From: Duganella sp. 1224
GTDB lineage: Bacteria; Pseudomonadota; Gammaproteobacteria; Burkholderiales; Burkholderiaceae_D
Assembly (NCBI RefSeq): GCF_013408245.1
Contig: NZ_JACBYS010000002.1
Coordinates: 1 to 64,000, forward strand
Reading direction: 5' to 3'
Length of the DNA stretch: 64,000 bases
The notes under the pieces are model-generated. The model was given only the letters and a program-made list of their open reading frames with translations. It did not search any database and was not told the origin of the DNA. Position numbers and translations under genes: made by a program. Each line of letters starts with the position of its first letter. Positions within the stretch are counted from its first letter, which is position 1. This document shows, one piece after another, positions 33,060-50,236 of the stretch.

Positions 33060-35450
33060 ATGAACAAGAAATTCTCCGTCGTCTGCTTCGCCGCGCTGAG
33101 CTTCCCGATGCTGGCCATGGCCGCCAACGTTGCCGCCGCAGTGGCCGATATGGCCGACACCCCAGCCGCCGTCGAAACTGCGTCGGAGGCCGAAGCGGCC
33201 GCCGCCGGCCCGATCGCCACCGTCGAAGTGGCCACCCGCAAGAGCCGCTCGTCGGTCGAACTGGGCAAGAACGACATGCAGAAGATCCTGCCCGGCATCA
33301 ACCCGCTGAAGGCGCTGCAGACCCTGCCGGGCGTCAGCTTCCAGACCGCCGACCCGTGGGGCAACAACGAACAAAACCTGTCGCTGTTCATCCACGGCTT
33401 CAGCGGCCAGCAGCTGGGCTACACGCTGGATGGCGTGCCGCTCGGCGACCAGCAATACGGCAACTACAACGGCCTGTCGCCGCAGCGCGCCATCACCAGC
33501 GAAAACGTCGGCAGCGTGATCCTGTCGTCCGGCGCCGGCGACCTGTCGACCGCCTCGACCAGCAACCTGGGCGGCACCATCGAGACCTTCTCCAGCAACC
33601 CGCTGCCAAACCGCAACCTGTCGGCGCAGCAGACCGTCGGCAGCTACAGCACCTCGCGCACCTTCCTGCGCTACGACACCGGCAACTTCGGCGACGGCAA
33701 CAGCGCCTACATCTCGGCCGTGCACCACGAGCAGAAAGCCTGGGACTTCCAGGGCCGCCAGGGCGGCGACCAGGTCAACGCCAAGTTCGTCAACAACGGC
33801 AACAACGGCAAGCTGACGCTGTACTTCGCCTACTCGGACAAGATCGAGCCGAACGAGGACAGCACCGTGCGCTCGGCCACCGAGAAGTACCAGCCGTACA
33901 CCCGTCCGTTCCTGTACCCGAACTTCCAGCAGGCGTTGAACTACCTGTCGGCCACCGGCGCCACGCCGGCCGCGGACGGCAACAACTACCGCAACTACTA
34001 CAGCGACGCCCAGCGCACCGACTACCTGACCTACGCCAAGTACGACTGGAACATCAACGACAGCACCACCTGGTCCAACCAGCTCTACTACCACAACGAC
34101 GACGGCGTTGGCGTGGTGGCCGGCCCGATCGGCGTGGCCGGCCTGCCGGCGCTGTTCGCGGTCTACTTCCCGGGCCAGAATCTGAAGCAGGTGTTCGGCA
34201 ATTCCGGCTACGCCACCCGCACCACCGAGTACGCGATCAACCGCAGCGGCTGGCTGTCGAACCTCAAGACCGAGTTCGGCAACCACACACTGCAAGCCGG
34301 CCTGTGGTTCGAGCACAACCGCTCGTCGGCCTACCGCCGCTGGTACGCGCTGGACGTCAACAACCCGAGCTCGCCGTACGACCGCCCCAGCAATCCGCTG
34401 ATCACCCAGTACGGCAGCGAGATCGACAACAAGGTCGCGCAGCTGAGCCTGCAGGATGAATGGCGCGTGCGGCCGGACCTGGCGCTGCAAGCCGGCTTCA
34501 AGTCCAGCCTGCAGTTTGCCGATGGCCAGTTCCCGGTGCAGCCGAAGAACGGCGCCATCGCCAACTCGACCGCGCTGCCGGTCGGCACCATCGACACCAA
34601 GAAATGGTTCCTGCCGCAGATCGGCGGCCGCTGGGACATCACCGCGCAAGACCAGGCCTTCTTCAACGTGCAGAAGAACATGCGCCAGTTCGTCACCTAC
34701 GGCGGCGGCGGCGCGTCGCCGTGGAGCTTGTCGAGCCAGGGCGCGTTCGACCTGTTCAAGCAGACCGGCAAGCCGGAAACCTCGGTCACCTACGAAGCAG
34801 GCCTGCGCAGCAGCCACCCGTTGAACTGGGGCGCGCTGAGCGCGATCGACGGCCAGATCAACGTCTACCACGTCGACTTCAAGGACCGCCTGCTGCAGAT
34901 CAGCCCGACCTCGGTGATCTCGTCGATTATCGGCGGCAACCTGGCGGTGCTGACCAACGTCGGCAGCGTCAAGACCAACGGCGTCGACCTGTCGGCCACG
35001 GCCCACTTCGGCCGCGCCTTCTCGCTGTACAACGCGCTGTCGTACAACGATTCCAAGTACGACGACAACTACCTGAACGGCAACGCCGTGGTGCCGACCG
35101 CCGGCAAGAAAGTGCCGGGCAGCCCGGAGTGGATGAACAAGACCGTCGCCACGCTGAACGTGGCCGATACCGAGTTCCAGCTGATCGGCGACTACGTCGG
35201 CAAGCGCTACGCCACCTACACCAACGACCTGTGGGTCAAGAGCTACTTCCTGATGAGCCTGGGCGTCTCGGGCAAGCTGCCGTTCCTCAACGGCGGCTGG
35301 GTCAAGAATGCGCGCTACCGCCTGAACGTGACCAACCTGGCCAATCGCGAGGGTGACCTCAACGTGGTGGTCGGCGCGGCCAGCGGCACGTACAATACCT
35401 TCCCAATTGCACCTCGTCAGGGGTTCCTGACTTTGATGGCGGACTTCTGA
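33060..35450 (+). CDS. TonB-dependent receptor coupled to a glycerophosphodiesterase
   Basis: A 796-residue outer-membrane receptor with a signal peptide (MNKKFSVVCFAALSFPMLAMA), an Ala-rich linker and a plug domain (about residues 60-185) including KALQTLPGVSFQTADPWGNNEQ and LDGVPLGD. The 22-strand barrel ends in QGFLTLMADF. It differs from the 'NGRR' carbohydrate type; the plug resembles receptors found next to phosphoesterases in Sphingomonas/Massilia-like bacteria. The following gdpD gene starts inside its stop codon, strong evidence for a joint role, probably uptake of phosphodiester compounds. No canonical PHO or Fur box was recognised in the 114-nt upstream gap. Confidence 0.9.
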   Translation: MNKKFSVVCFAALSFPMLAMAANVAAAVADMADTPAAVETASEAEAAAAGPIATVEVATRKSRSSVELGKNDMQKILPGINPLKALQTLPGVSFQTADPWGNNEQNLSLFIHGFSGQQLGYTLDGVPLGDQQYGNYNGLSPQRAITSENVGSVILSSGAGDLSTASTSNLGGTIETFSSNPLPNRNLSAQQTVGSYSTSRTFLRYDTGNFGDGNSAYISAVHHEQKAWDFQGRQGGDQVNAKFVNNGNNGKLTLYFAYSDKIEPNEDSTVRSATEKYQPYTRPFLYPNFQQALNYLSATGATPAADGNNYRNYYSDAQRTDYLTYAKYDWNINDSTTWSNQLYYHNDDGVGVVAGPIGVAGLPALFAVYFPGQNLKQVFGNSGYATRTTEYAINRSGWLSNLKTEFGNHTLQAGLWFEHNRSSAYRRWYALDVNNPSSPYDRPSNPLITQYGSEIDNKVAQLSLQDEWRVRPDLALQAGFKSSLQFADGQFPVQPKNGAIANSTALPVGTIDTKKWFLPQIGGRWDITAQDQAFFNVQKNMRQFVTYGGGGASPWSLSSQGAFDLFKQTGKPETSVTYEAGLRSSHPLNWGALSAIDGQINVYHVDFKDRLLQISPTSVISSIIGGNLAVLTNVGSVKTNGVDLSATAHFGRAFSLYNALSYNDSKYDDNYLNGNAVVPTAGKKVPGSPEWMNKTVATLNVADTEFQLIGDYVGKRYATYTNDLWVKSYFLMSLGVSGKLPFLNGGWVKNARYRLNVTNLANREGDLNVVVGAASGTYNTFPIAPRQGFLTLMADF

Positions 35451-36652
35451 TGACCACACTGTATTTGCCCAAGCGGCTGTCGCGCCGCGGCTTCCTCCAG
35501 ACGGCGGCGGCGCTGGCCGCCACCTCGGCCGGCGGCCTGCTGCTGCCGGGCCTGGCCCAGGCCGGCAGCATGCTGGCGCCCGGCGCGCCGGCCACGCCGG
35601 ACCTGTCCGGCATGCCGGGCGTGGCGCCGGTTGGCACCGCCCAGCCCAAGCCGCTGATCTTCGGCCACCGCGGCGCCAGCGCGTTGCGTCCCGAGCATAC
35701 GCTGGCGTCGTACGCCAAGGCGATCGCCGACGGCGCCGACTATGTCGAGCCGGACCTGGTCAGCACCAGGGACGGCGTGCTGGTGGCGCGCCACGAAGCG
35801 TTCCTGAGCGAGACCACCGACGTCGCCAGCCACCCGGAATTCGCCAGCCGCAAGACCCGCAAGACCATCGACGGCGAAACGCATGAAGGCTGGTTCGTCG
35901 ACGACTTCACGCTGGCCGAACTGAAAACGCTGCGCGCGGTCGAGCGCATTCCGCAATACCGTCCGGGCAGCGCGCAGTACAACGGCATGTACCAGGTGGC
36001 GACGTTCGAGGAAATCATCGACTTCGTCGCGGCCGAGGCGGCGGCGCGCGGACGCATCGTCGGCATCGTGCCCGAGCTGAAGCACTCGACCTACTTCGCC
36101 AGCGTCGGCCTGCCGCTGGAAGACCGTTTCCTGGCCATCCTGGGCGCGCACGACTACACCCGCCGCAACCCGGTGGAAATCCAGTCGTTCGAAGTGGCCA
36201 ACCTGAAATACCTGCGCGGCAAGCTGGGCCGCCGCGCCAACCTGCGCCTGATGCAGCTGGTGATCGGCGAGAACGTGCGGCCGATGGACGTGGCGGCCGC
36301 CGGCGGCACGCTGACGTTCGCGCAGATGTGCACGCCGGCCGGCCTGCGCGACATCGCCCAGTACGCCGACGTGGTGGCGCCGCCGACGCGCAGCATCATC
36401 CCGCTGAACAAGGACGGCACGCTGGCCGCGCCGTCGTCGCTGGTGGACGACGCGCACCAGGCCGGCCTGCGGGTGGAGCCCTGGACCTTCCGTCCGGAGA
36501 ACCACTTCCTGGCCGCCGACTTCCGCAACAGCGCCGGCGACGCCGCCCGCAACGAGGCCGGCTCGATCGCCGAAATGAAACGCTACATCGCCACCGGCAT
36601 CGACGGCTTCTTCACCGACGACCCCGCCCTCGGCCGCGCCGCCCTGGGTTGA
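35450..36652 (+). CDS. Tat-exported glycerophosphodiester phosphodiesterase
   Basis: A 400-residue GlpQ/GDPD-family enzyme that hydrolyses glycerophosphodiesters to an alcohol and glycerol-3-phosphate in the periplasm. The N-terminus carries a twin-arginine signal (LSRRGFLQTAAAL, cleavage near AQA). The catalytic strand is IFGHRGASALRPEHTL, followed by YVEPDLVSTRDGVLVARHEAFL with metal-binding Glu/Asp and the second catalytic His. The C-terminal GIDGFFTDDPALG is diagnostic. It overlaps the TonB receptor stop by one base. It forms a probable two-gene scavenging unit for phosphorus or glycerol. The ATPase/importer for the product is not nearby. Confidence 0.94.
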   Translation: MTTLYLPKRLSRRGFLQTAAALAATSAGGLLLPGLAQAGSMLAPGAPATPDLSGMPGVAPVGTAQPKPLIFGHRGASALRPEHTLASYAKAIADGADYVEPDLVSTRDGVLVARHEAFLSETTDVASHPEFASRKTRKTIDGETHEGWFVDDFTLAELKTLRAVERIPQYRPGSAQYNGMYQVATFEEIIDFVAAEAAARGRIVGIVPELKHSTYFASVGLPLEDRFLAILGAHDYTRRNPVEIQSFEVANLKYLRGKLGRRANLRLMQLVIGENVRPMDVAAAGGTLTFAQMCTPAGLRDIAQYADVVAPPTRSIIPLNKDGTLAAPSSLVDDAHQAGLRVEPWTFRPENHFLAADFRNSAGDAARNEAGSIAEMKRYIATGIDGFFTDDPALGRAALG

Positions 36653-36791
36653 TGCCCGTCACGCCGGGGGACACTCCTCCGGCTGGCGTGCCACAACGCC
36701 AGGATGTGTGGGCAGGTCACTGAATACGTTCAGCCGACTTTGCACGCTTGAGCTATCCTTCCGTGATGCCCGTATTCAGACAGAGGTGAAC

Positions 36792-37274
36792 GTGGTAGCT
36801 AGCAAAAAAGATCAAAATGCCATAGGTGAGCGTGGTGAATCAATATTTTTCACGCGCATTACTGCATTACATGGGCCCAGGCCACTGTTTAAGCCAGCCT
36901 TCCTTGGCGACAAGTGGGCGGTAGCTGATTATGCGATTGAGCTCGTAGGTCATCCAGGACGATATTTTCTTGTTCAAGTCAAGGCGACTACCAATGGCGT
37001 GAATGCTATGGGCAATCTGAAGGCACAGGTTGAACATTTTCGGTATCAAAAACTCGTGAATGCCTGGATACCAACCTATGTGGTGGGTGTTGACGACTCT
37101 ACTGAAGAGGCTTACGTGTGTGCCACCCGACCACTTAAAGGCGGACTCAGCTCTATCAAGACCAGTTTTCCGCTGCGGGATCCGATCGTTCGTCAACAGC
37201 TTTATGATGAAGTCCTCGCATTCTGGAAAAAAGCTGCTGGCAAGGGCCGTCCCTGGACTTCCCGCCTTTATTAG
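36792..37274 (+). CDS. DUF4365-like PD-(D/E)XK-fold protein, first of an AT-rich pair
   Basis: A 160-residue protein beginning ASKKDQNAIGERGESIFFTRI. The Glu in GERGES, the Asp in WAVADYAIELV and the FLVQVKAT strand form a nuclease-like PD-(D/E)XK pattern (E...D...QxK, Gln replacing the usual acidic residue). This layout is typical of DUF4365-type proteins found in mobile or defence contexts. The GTG start at 36792 is chosen because AGAGG sits at proper spacing; an ATG at 36708 has none. Composition is clearly more AT-rich than neighbours, suggesting transfer. The next gene begins 9 nt after its stop. Function unknown. Confidence 0.72.
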   Translation: MVASKKDQNAIGERGESIFFTRITALHGPRPLFKPAFLGDKWAVADYAIELVGHPGRYFLVQVKATTNGVNAMGNLKAQVEHFRYQKLVNAWIPTYVVGVDDSTEEAYVCATRPLKGGLSSIKTSFPLRDPIVRQQLYDEVLAFWKKAAGKGRPWTSRLY

Positions 37275-37283
37275 GATTGATAT

Positions 37284-37748
37284 ATGAATTCCTCCGAAGC
37301 ATGGTTTATTGGACAGCGCGCCGACAGTTTGGCGACTATGTATCTGACAAGAATACCTTCGTTACGTATCGAACGCCTTTCCTCCGACATGGGGATCGAC
37401 TACTTGGTTCAAGTAGATAAACATCCCACGCAATTTTTTGGAATTATCATAAAAGCATCAAGAACGATGCGCGGACTTATTAAAGATTCATCTTTGAGCC
37501 AGAAAATGGTGGATGAACTTTTAAAACAAACGAAGAATGCCGTCTTTCCAGTCGCGTTACTTGCGGTCGATATTAAAACCGAAGAGATGAAATTCGGCTG
37601 GATCAATTTCAATTCACAAAGTAAATCCCTGAAGAGCCTATCGACCGTGGATATGCAGCCTGCCAGTAAAGAAACGCTGCAAAAAGCACTGCGGGATGTG
37701 AGGGATTGGTATGCAGAGCTGAGAAAGCAGGAGCTGTCAAATCTCTAG
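37284..37748 (+). CDS. DUF4365-like partner protein, second of an AT-rich pair
   Basis: A 154-residue protein with the same plan as its upstream neighbour: N-terminal helix MNSSEAWFIGQRADSLA, then SSDMGIDYLVQVDKH and the strand QFFGIIIKAS. If this is the same PD-(D/E)XK fold, the Asp of GID and the Lys of IIK are kept but the middle acidic/Gln position is Ile, so it may be catalytically degenerate. The rest (KNAVFPVALLAVDIKTEEMKFGWINF) matches the second half of DUF4365-like proteins. AGGA precedes the ATG at 7 nt. AT-rich (roughly 40-45% GC by eye), unlike flanking genes. An intrinsic terminator follows. Confidence 0.68.
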   Translation: MNSSEAWFIGQRADSLATMYLTRIPSLRIERLSSDMGIDYLVQVDKHPTQFFGIIIKASRTMRGLIKDSSLSQKMVDELLKQTKNAVFPVALLAVDIKTEEMKFGWINFNSQSKSLKSLSTVDMQPASKETLQKALRDVRDWYAELRKQELSNL

Positions 37749-37770
37749 CCCAGGGGTAAGAGACTCATGA

Positions 37771-37810
37771 AAAGGGCCAGAATGTTCCTTTGGCCCTTCG
37801 CTTTGTTTAG
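37771..37810 (+). terminator. Terminator after the AT-rich gene pair
   Basis: AAAGGGCCA, an 11-nt loop, then TGGCCCTTCGCTTTGTTT. It overlaps the end of the convergent hemin gene by a few bases. On the minus strand an A-rich stretch makes it weaker for that gene. Confidence 0.65.
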
Positions 37811-38988
37811 CGGCTGGCCTGGCGAGTTGTTTCGGCCCTGGGCAGTGCGGCGGTAAGGTCGATCCAGGCTTGTGGGATCGGGCGTTCTTTGCTGCGCACG
37901 CCGAAGAAGCTGACGACTTCGTTGCCGTCCCTGTCGTAAAACTCGACGTTCACCACGCCGGCGCGCTTGACGACGTAGCCGCTGACGAAGGCGCTGTCGC
38001 GCAGGTGCAGGTTGAACTCCGGGTCCAGCACATTGAAGTAGCCGCCCGCTTCTTTCACCGTGGTGATCTGGCCGCTGTAGATCTGGATGGTCGCGCTATT
38101 GCCCAGGAAAGCCATGATCGGCACTTGCTGCCTGGCCGCCTGCTCCAGCAACTGGCGTACCGCTTTCGGGTCGATGCGTTGCACCTTGTCGACCGGTCCC
38201 AGACGCAGGCCCTGCTCGCGCGTGACGCCAAACTCCGCCAGCAGGCGGTTGAACTGGTGAACGTCGTTGATTTCGTTCCACGCCGCCTGAAATTCCTTGA
38301 CGTCGATCGCGCTGTCCGGCTTGACGGCCGGCTTGAGCGGCGCCGGCGACACGTTCAGGTCGGCGCTTTGCAGCGGGTTGCGGAAGTCGGCGACGATCTT
38401 GTCGAACACGGCCACGCCGGCCTCGCTCTTGACGTACAGCTTGTGCGCGGCGTTGCCGTGCTGGTCGAAGAATTGCAGGCTGCGCATCGGCACGCCATCC
38501 TTGCCTGGCTGGACCACGGCAAACGCGTATTTCCAGTGCTTGAAGGTGAAGCGCAGGTCGATGTCGCCGCCCAGGTAGCCGCCGGCGATGTTGCGCAGGC
38601 GCGCTTCGCGTTCTTTCTCCTTGTCGGCGTCGAGGCCGGTCACTTCTTCCTGTTGCTTCAGGCGCGTGGCCACGCCGGTGCGTTCGATGACGCCGTTTTC
38701 GTTGCGCGTCAGCGCCATGACTTTGCCGAGGTCGAGCGCGCGGCGCATGATTTCGCGCGGCACGTTGTCGCCTTCGCGCAGGCGCGTGACGGTCTTGCCG
38801 AGACCGGTCGCGGCCAGCAGTTCGGCTTCCGACACATGCAGTCTGGCGGCGGCGTCGCGCAGCGCCAGCCTGGGCTCGGCGGCGCGCAGCGCGTCGTACT
38901 GTTCCTGCAGACTGGCGGCGCCGGCCGGTACGGACGAGATCAGCAAGGCGCCGGTCAGCGCCAGGGCAATGCGGTGATGAGGTTTCAT
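37807..38988 (-). CDS. ChuS/HmuS-type hemin-degrading protein with a signal peptide
   Basis: A 393-residue protein of the HemS/ChuS/PhuS family, which binds heme and may degrade it or pass it to heme oxygenase. The two structural repeats are visible: DIDLRFTFKHWKYAFAV and the matching FNLHLRDSAF, with FFDQHGNAAHKLYVK supplying the heme-ligand His (H182). The family's N-terminal helix (QEQYDALRAAEP...) follows an unexpected hydrophobic leader, MKPHHRIALALTGALLISSVPAGA, that looks like a cleavable Sec signal. Canonical members are cytosolic, so export to the periplasm would be novel. It lies 10 nt downstream of the heme TonB receptor gene and is presumably under the same Fur box. Confidence 0.88.
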   Translation of the reverse strand: MKPHHRIALALTGALLISSVPAGAASLQEQYDALRAAEPRLALRDAAARLHVSEAELLAATGLGKTVTRLREGDNVPREIMRRALDLGKVMALTRNENGVIERTGVATRLKQQEEVTGLDADKEKEREARLRNIAGGYLGGDIDLRFTFKHWKYAFAVVQPGKDGVPMRSLQFFDQHGNAAHKLYVKSEAGVAVFDKIVADFRNPLQSADLNVSPAPLKPAVKPDSAIDVKEFQAAWNEINDVHQFNRLLAEFGVTREQGLRLGPVDKVQRIDPKAVRQLLEQAARQQVPIMAFLGNSATIQIYSGQITTVKEAGGYFNVLDPEFNLHLRDSAFVSGYVVKRAGVVNVEFYDRDGNEVVSFFGVRSKERPIPQAWIDLTAALPRAETTRQASR

Positions 38989-46186: not shown

Positions 46187-47512
<1,326 letters not shown>

Positions 47513-47597
47513 TTACGCGCGTTGCGAACGATAACGGGAATTGTACCCGGTCAAGACAAGATTGCTAAATATTCCACACGCAACTGTGGCTTTAGCC

Positions 47598-47683
47598 CCC
47601 CGTCATTCCGGCGCAGGCCGGAATCCATAGAACCTCTGAGTAGCAAGCTCAGCATGGATTCCGGCGTGCGCCGGAATGACGGG
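47598..47683. repeat. Copy 2 of the 85-nt hairpin repeat, between kdsA and eno
   Basis: CCCGTCATTCCGGCGCAGGC.. (47598-47628) pairs with ..GCGTGCGCCGGAATGACGGG (47654-47683), about 30 nt arms with one or two mismatches around a 25-nt centre. Both arms are nearly identical to copy 1 at 29072-29158. It lies 8 nt after the kdsA stop codon (minus strand). Confidence 0.85.
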
Positions 47684-47690
47684 CTGTTTT

Positions 47691-50236
<2,546 letters not shown>

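Follow-up and report, generated by a model that had tools for sequence, protein, structure and literature searches.

A possible toxin-antitoxin cassette pairing a DREN/DUF4365-like protein with its degenerate paralogue in Duganella sp. 1224

RESULTS

Two adjacent low-GC genes lie between a GDPD and a HemS/ChuX gene

The window, i.e., the whole stretch of 64,000 nucleotides of Duganella sp. 1224 DNA that was analyzed, carries two genes, termed A and B, in a slot between genes for a glycerophosphodiester phosphodiesterase (GDPD) and a HemS/ChuX protein (Table 1). Gene A starts with a GTG codon, a further in-frame GTG is present at position 36786, and an AGAGG sequence upstream of the gene ends 5 nt ahead of position 36792. 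The stop of A and the start of B, which are located on the same strand, are separated by 9 nt. Both genes stood out by their base composition. The GC content was 0.493 for A and 0.439 for B compared to 0.656 for the window, and GC3 values of 0.447 (A) and 0.490 (B) were obtained, while the two flanking genes on either side ranged from 0.86 to 0.94. None of 1261 window segments (957 nt each, in steps of 50 nt) was as low as the complete unit, which has a GC content of 0.464. No sigma-70-like promoter was found within positions 36600-37900 (shuffles averaged 1.3). These data bear out the initial annotation, which had been made from the sequence alone, in its description of two small genes 9 nt apart with a low GC content compared to their neighbors. 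Its claim that the pair ends in its own terminator stood in part: a good hairpin is located downstream of B; however, three terminator-like sites in the region compared to 1.5 ± 1.0 in region shuffles constitute weak evidence.

Table 1. Features of the two-gene unit and its surroundings (positions in the window)
Feature	Position	Strand	Remarks
GDPD (glycerophosphodiester phosphodiesterase) gene	35450-36652	+	Flank family
Variable slot	36653-37806		Between GDPD gene and HemS/ChuX gene
Gene A	36792-37274	+	ORF; 160-aa stand-alone DREN/DUF4365-like PD-(D/E)XK protein, predicted active
Catalytic stretch of A	36927-36983	+	D46, 36927-36929; Q62, 36975-36977; K64, 36981-36983
Gene B	37284-37748	+	ORF, ATG start; 154-aa paralogue of A, broken triad
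Degenerate site of B	37398-37454	+	D39, 37398-37400; I55 (Q position), 37446-37448; K57, 37452-37454
Candidate intrinsic terminator, 3′ of B	37772-37798	+	10-pair stem, 7-nt loop, T-rich tail; consensus match only
HemS/ChuX gene	37807-38988	-	Flank family

A and B are related and are predicted to share a PD-(D/E)XK fold

A BLASTP comparison of A and B yielded 28% over 101 aa (E = 3e-8). Their local alignment score of 78 was reached by 0 of 2000 shuffles, which had a mean of 26.8 and a maximum of 51. The similarity between A and the B protein of the genus genome G034 was weak (score reached by 12 of 1000 shuffles), and B compared to the A-type proteins of the type II units described below (A′) was at chance (167 to 306 of 1000 shuffles). 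The link between A and B is therefore drawn mainly from the window pair and from the fold. A first comparison of A and B profiles was discarded as confounded, since the G034 protein has an A-type N terminus. Without this A-type part, the profiles matched in the same register with a P value of 3e-4 and a probability of 39%; with the A′ proteins alone, P was 0.018.

Structures were predicted as AlphaFold2 single-chain models, which were of moderate confidence (A, pLDDT 64 and pTM 0.66; B, pLDDT 70 and pTM 0.68). The top PDB match was a SPARDA chain for both models, namely 9qbp_C for A (Foldseek E = 8.1e-5, Z 12.2, root mean square deviation [rmsd] 3.4 over 136 aa) and 9qcc_M for B (E = 1.4e-4, Z 12.8, rmsd 3.4 over 141 aa). 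The first non-SPARDA match was I-Ssp6803I in either case (Z 8.3 for A and 9.3 for B). As A-type sequences were present in the alignment underlying the B model, the fold match of B is partly dependent on A. Searches of PDB chain sequences with A1, A2, A3, P0001, and P0002 returned no relevant match, and thus the match to SPARDA is one of fold alone. Taken with these limits, the models support a PD-(D/E)XK (DUF4365/DREN) fold common to A and B.

Matches to sequence families were sparse. A scored 22.1 bits (E = 1.7e-4) against PF14280 (DUF4365), whose curated cut-off of 24.3 bits was not reached; the Pfam scan gave no match of any kind for B, and P0011, a relative of B, scored 15.2 bits (E = 0.023). 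Because all three fall short of 24.3 bits, we use the label DUF4365/DREN-like and refrain from a formal assignment to DUF4365. Scans of NCBIfam, PADLOC, and PHROGs gave no match for A or B up to an E value of 10, and the family-library scans detected no recognition domain or DNA-binding family in either protein.

The catalytic triad is complete in A and broken in B

The catalytic residues of NbaSPARDA are D41, Q60, and K62, of which D41 and Q60 bind the metal; activity is abolished by the D41A or Q60A mutation and impaired by K62A (PMC12205087, available portion). The same portion describes the isolated DREN domain as a monomer without detectable activity that becomes active as a D2 tetramer; in the substrate-bound tetramer, substrate occupies only two of the four catalytic pockets. 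Q62 and K64 of TmuRE have been proposed as active residues in the accessible part of another study (PMC10810196). D46, Q62, and K64 of A form the same D/Q/K pattern as the NbaSPARDA triad. In B, the Q position is taken by I55, and the G034 protein, the sole relative of B that was found, carries L-I-K with an L in this place, so that QxK is absent from both B proteins. QxK was recovered by script in 16 of 20 PF14280 places, which derived from a 299-genome phylum sample with the window's own genome left out; a 17th (L053) was recognized by eye, and the remaining three were unmatched. Since D..QxK is whole in A and the Q is replaced in B (I in the window, L in G034), A is predicted to be active and B to be catalytically dead. 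A therefore combines the PD-(D/E)XK fold with the D..QxK motif of DUF4365, whereas B matches the fold without the Q.

The initial annotation had read the same fold plan into both proteins, with E...D...QVK in the first and D...IIK in the second, and had named fold prediction as a check. The motifs are as described (D46..Q62-V-K64 and D39..I55-I-K57), the alignment score exceeds every shuffle, and both models match the nuclease fold of the SPARDA DREN domain. The proposed pairing of an active with a degenerate partner holds for the window unit and G034; it does not extend to the type II units, in which most partners retain a complete motif.

Two types of related units occur in the genus

Searching 74 genomes of the genus with a profile identified A-type genes in 7 genomes, and a single-sequence search added G034, which the profile had missed. 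In total, related units were found at nine loci in 8 of the 74 genomes, with the window's own genome accounting for two of the loci. The A-type gene comes first in all nine, and a separate second gene directly follows it in seven. Of the other two, G034 has B fused behind an A remnant, and a diverged second ORF was assigned by eye in G031. Two types can be distinguished. Type I, with B as the partner, is represented by the window and G034 (n = 2, one fused), and the other seven units are of type II, which combines A′ with a protein of about 130 aa (B′). B′ was found by profile search in six genomes (G000 contig 12, G041, G060, G001, G063, and G013). The G000 contig 12 unit (positions 47032-47938, L002/L027) is located in the window's own genome; in this unit and in those of G041 and G060, the reading frames of A′ and B′ overlap.

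B′ appears from its sequence to be a PD-(D/E)XK-like protein different from B. Four of the six B′ sequences read have the motif E-V-K, with E-V-R in G000 and Q-V-S in G013. Similarity to Mrr_cat (PF04471) was weak in three of five B′ proteins tested (E = 0.012 to 0.14, all under the Pfam cut-off), and P0004 matched PDDEXK_9 with an E value of 0.12. Profile comparison and shuffles detected no relation between B and B′; thus, the second genes of the two types are either unrelated or unrecognizably related. Given that E-V-K is kept in most B′ proteins, a dead partner is not a general rule.

Outside the genus, a 399-genome sample of the order queried with A1 and A3 gave a match only in the window's genome. 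A scan of named genomes yielded nothing confirmed with P0001 and four loci with the type II profile. A match of G071 to B′ (E = 8e-4), which on visual inspection looked like a different gene read in a reverse frame, was dropped from the counts. No match to P0001 or P0002 was present in plasmids and phages, or to P0005 or P0006 in plasmids, and scans of viral contigs gave no confirmed match. P0006, the B′ of G041 (L035, 6524-6913), resembled the PADLOC model SspF over about 60 residues (residues 30-90, E = 8.3e-4) and OloB over about 34 residues (E = 0.036). The other relatives among the seven scanned had no PADLOC match; the SspF match was thus the sole one with an E value below 0.01 and was not repeated by other B′ proteins.

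The unit is one of several cargos of a variable slot

A search for the downstream HemS gene gave matches in 64 of the 74 genus genomes. We surveyed the slot at the best 30 HemS loci, including that of the window; both flanks were in reach at 18 and this was otherwise at 12. Among the 17 slots other than that of the window, 9 were near-empty (26 to 137 nt), and 8 contained other DNA (580 to 1326 nt). In L061, L062, and L068, this cargo was a ParE-type toxin accompanied by a small partner (tested in L061 and L062, with Pfam E values of 1e-11 and 1.2e-10 for ParE and no Pfam match for the partners). L070 and L071 carried S41 peptidases, the latter tested with Pfam, and L083-L085 held other genes. 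The near-empty and differently filled copies indicate that the slot is variable and that the unit is one cargo of several. By eye, palindromes were noted in eight of the nine near-empty slots (L064, L066, L073, L074, L076, L087, L088, and L089); they resemble REP elements, most having GGGGTCAG...CTGACCCC-like ends.

Type II units reside at other loci. The four units of G060, G001, G063, and G013 lie between aceA and rng, an interval that holds further genes besides the unit in some genomes. Of 30 aceA loci examined, 7 had rng in reach, and the interval was near-empty in 2 of these (85 and 68 nt). aceA at the unit-bearing loci is 95 to 99% identical to that of G060, whereas B′ is 37 to 59% identical between genomes. 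Vertical inheritance of these units was considered but fits this contrast less well than repeated acquisition or very rapid change.

The initial annotation had named a conserved two-gene unit at variable loci as support for its reading, and such a unit, lacking in most relatives, was observed (8 of 74 genomes, variable slot). The alternative of a housekeeping remnant, also raised at the outset, is unlikely, since 9 of the 17 relatives that could be read have next to nothing in the slot. Two outcomes had been named as speaking against an undescribed system, a fold without nuclease similarity and synteny conserved in all relatives, and neither occurred. Neighboring defense genes, for which the initial annotation had proposed a scan, were not seen, as PADLOC gave 0 matches at E ≤ 0.001 for seven neighbors of the unit. 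A Pfam scan of the same neighbors detected no methyltransferase, Argonaute, or known sensor domain.

Lesions at the nine loci affect mainly the first gene

The A-type gene is disrupted at five of the nine loci, while the second gene is open at no fewer than eight (at least 8/9). The lesions comprise an in-frame deletion of 126 nt in G001, which eliminates the catalytic D, an in-frame internal deletion in G063, a frameshift with losses in G013, and an early stop in G031. In G034, one ORF (L034, 9771-10382) consists of the first ~30 residues of A followed in frame by a complete B, most of A having been lost without a shift of the frame. By eye, the fused ORF adjoins moaC-like and metallo-peptidase-like genes. 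Four loci combine a broken first gene with an open second gene and none shows the reverse, with G031 uncertain (sign test, 1/16, on few loci); three of the first-gene lesions occurred at one site, between aceA and rng. A broken first gene next to a retained second gene is the pattern expected of a toxin with a protective gene, although four discordant loci are few.

The dN/dS ratio was 0.16 for A′ (one of three pairs unsaturated) and 0.18 to 0.25 for B′ (4 of 15 pairs unsaturated). These low values in unsaturated pairs suggest that the type II genes are constrained. For the B pair of type I, dS was saturated and pN was 0.51.

DISCUSSION

We tentatively favor the interpretation that A and B form a toxin-antitoxin (TA) or abortive-infection cassette in which the dead paralogue B would restrain the DREN-type nuclease A, a reading whose chances we place somewhat below even. 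It is favored by the homology of A and B, the predicted fold with its match to SPARDA, the lost Q of B, the asymmetric decay, and the ParE-type pairs found in the same slot; against it stand the score of A under the DUF4365 cut-off, the lack of a family for B, the E-V-K motif in four of six B′ proteins, and the two cases of type I. The retained active-site motif of these B′ proteins is the main point that the reading leaves unexplained. We infer that A is a nuclease, that it would be toxic, that B would hold it through hetero-oligomers, and that a factor would release it. According to this model, the two-gene cassette would spread between species. A would be a small nuclease with the architecture of the DREN (DUF4365) effector domain found in SPARDA, and B an ancient copy of A that is devoid of catalytic activity and is probably made from the same transcript. 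By binding A via common oligomer surfaces, B would block formation of the active A homo-oligomer, which would keep A harmless. Loss, degradation, or titration of B would free A, which could then cut nucleic acids, whereupon growth would stop.

A bolder version of this model, which we consider rather unlikely, would make the unit a new kind of TA module: a full-length dead-paralogue antitoxin would join and poison the obligatory tetramer of a DREN-type collateral nuclease, removal of B during infection would be the release, and type II would represent a parallel solution for the same nuclease. The literature searched, with few subscription papers and no bioRxiv preprints, contained no description of a DREN/DUF4365 nuclease paired with a dead paralogue. 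DREN/DUF4365 nucleases are known effectors, which are gathered into tetramers by Argonaute for their switch-on. If the restraint of A by B is true, the cassette would illustrate Argonaute-independent control of a stand-alone DREN effector through a dead copy of itself, and it would offer a small and easily tested model for control by subunit poisoning.

The main rival is that A and B form an obligate hetero-oligomeric nuclease directed against phage or plasmid DNA, with B as an activator or subunit and no inhibitor; A would cut, and B would serve a structural role, help to hold the substrate, or carry a trigger site. A specialized dead subunit would be sensible in such an enzyme, given a DREN tetramer with substrate in two of its four pockets (PMC12205087, in the part available), and the tight coupling of the genes (the short gap in the window, the overlapping frames in three type II units) as well as the nuclease-like appearance of both type II proteins point in the same direction. 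However, retention of the second gene at four loci with a broken first gene is unexpected for an obligate subunit, and the seven neighbors scanned include neither a methylase nor a known sensor domain, so that we regard this enzyme as unlikely, albeit worth serious consideration. Improbable in our view is a transferred cassette that is decaying or has no present role in its host. Its low GC content, its rarity, and the broken first gene at five of nine loci would fit, but both window ORFs are intact, and purifying selection acts on the type II genes where it was measurable.

The fold also brings other PD-(D/E)XK enzymes into consideration. I-Ssp6803I is a PD-(D/E)XK homing enzyme, its likeness to DREN was remarked by the SPARDA authors (PMC12205087, accessible text), and the unit is an intergenic insertion compared to an empty slot; A and B might thus be a free-standing homing-type endonuclease pair that spreads by cutting empty alleles. 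Yet unrelated cargo is found in the slot, units occur at several different loci, Z scores near 8 to 9 may reflect the common fold only, and a B gene kept without A is left unexplained, which makes a homing pair very improbable. Least probable of all is a restriction-modification or anti-plasmid enzyme working with host methylation. The fold of A and B and the weak likeness of type II B′ to Mrr_cat (best E = 0.012) would agree with such an enzyme, whereas Pfam detected no methyltransferase in the seven neighbors scanned, and neither protein matched a recognition domain.

Comparison with known systems further delimits the unit. Like type II TA modules, it consists of two small, co-directional, adjacent genes, and its slot holds ParE-type pairs in three relatives. 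It differs from them in the PD-(D/E)XK fold of the would-be toxin and in a would-be antitoxin that is homologous to the toxin and matches no DNA-binding family. HipBST provides an earlier example of an antitoxin that shares the lineage of its toxin. The protein matched by HipT together with HipS is HipA. HipT and HipS correspond to portions of a single protein (PMC9325769, available part), and HipBST is a tripartite kinase system of split domains, whereas B is a full-length dead paralogue. Restriction endonucleases of the Mrr_cat family (PF04471) bear a weak likeness to type II B′, which is a stand-alone protein under the Pfam cut-off; no such likeness is claimed for window B. The partner methyltransferase of restriction-modification systems was missing among the seven neighbors scanned with Pfam.

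Closest to the folds of A and B is the DREN domain of SPARDA systems (NbaSPARDA, XauSPARDA, and TmuRE-Ago), in which DREN-APAZ is combined with a short Argonaute, and the D..QxK triad is common to SPARDA DREN and A. In contrast to SPARDA, the unit has neither APAZ nor Argonaute: a stand-alone DREN gene is followed by a dead paralogue, A (160 aa) and B (154 aa) cannot accommodate DREN-APAZ, which comprises ~440 aa in NbaSPARDA, and the flanks are GDPD and HemS, with no Argonaute among the seven neighbors scanned. Stand-alone DUF4365 genes of further genomes of the phylum (L042, L043, L044, L045, L050, L051, L056, and L059) adjoin a gene for a protein of ~290 to 390 aa (relatedness judged by eye); the neighbor at L043 looks HsdS-type by eye, and matches to the PDC-M02 models of PADLOC were obtained for both L044 proteins and for the partner at L050. 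PDC-M02 (PADLOC-DB), a DUF4365 protein with a partner of ~378 aa, shares with the unit the order of a small DUF4365 gene and a partner directly downstream (as in L044). It differs in the partner, which is a DREN-like paralogue in the unit and not PDC-M02B; the L044 proteins matched the models with E values of 2.8e-64 and 2.2e-133, and A and B had no PADLOC match. The unit is neither SPARDA nor PDC-M02 and resembles both in joining a DUF4365-type nuclease with a partner. If our favored interpretation is true, SPARDA, PDC-M02, and these cassettes would represent one nuclease with exchangeable partners.
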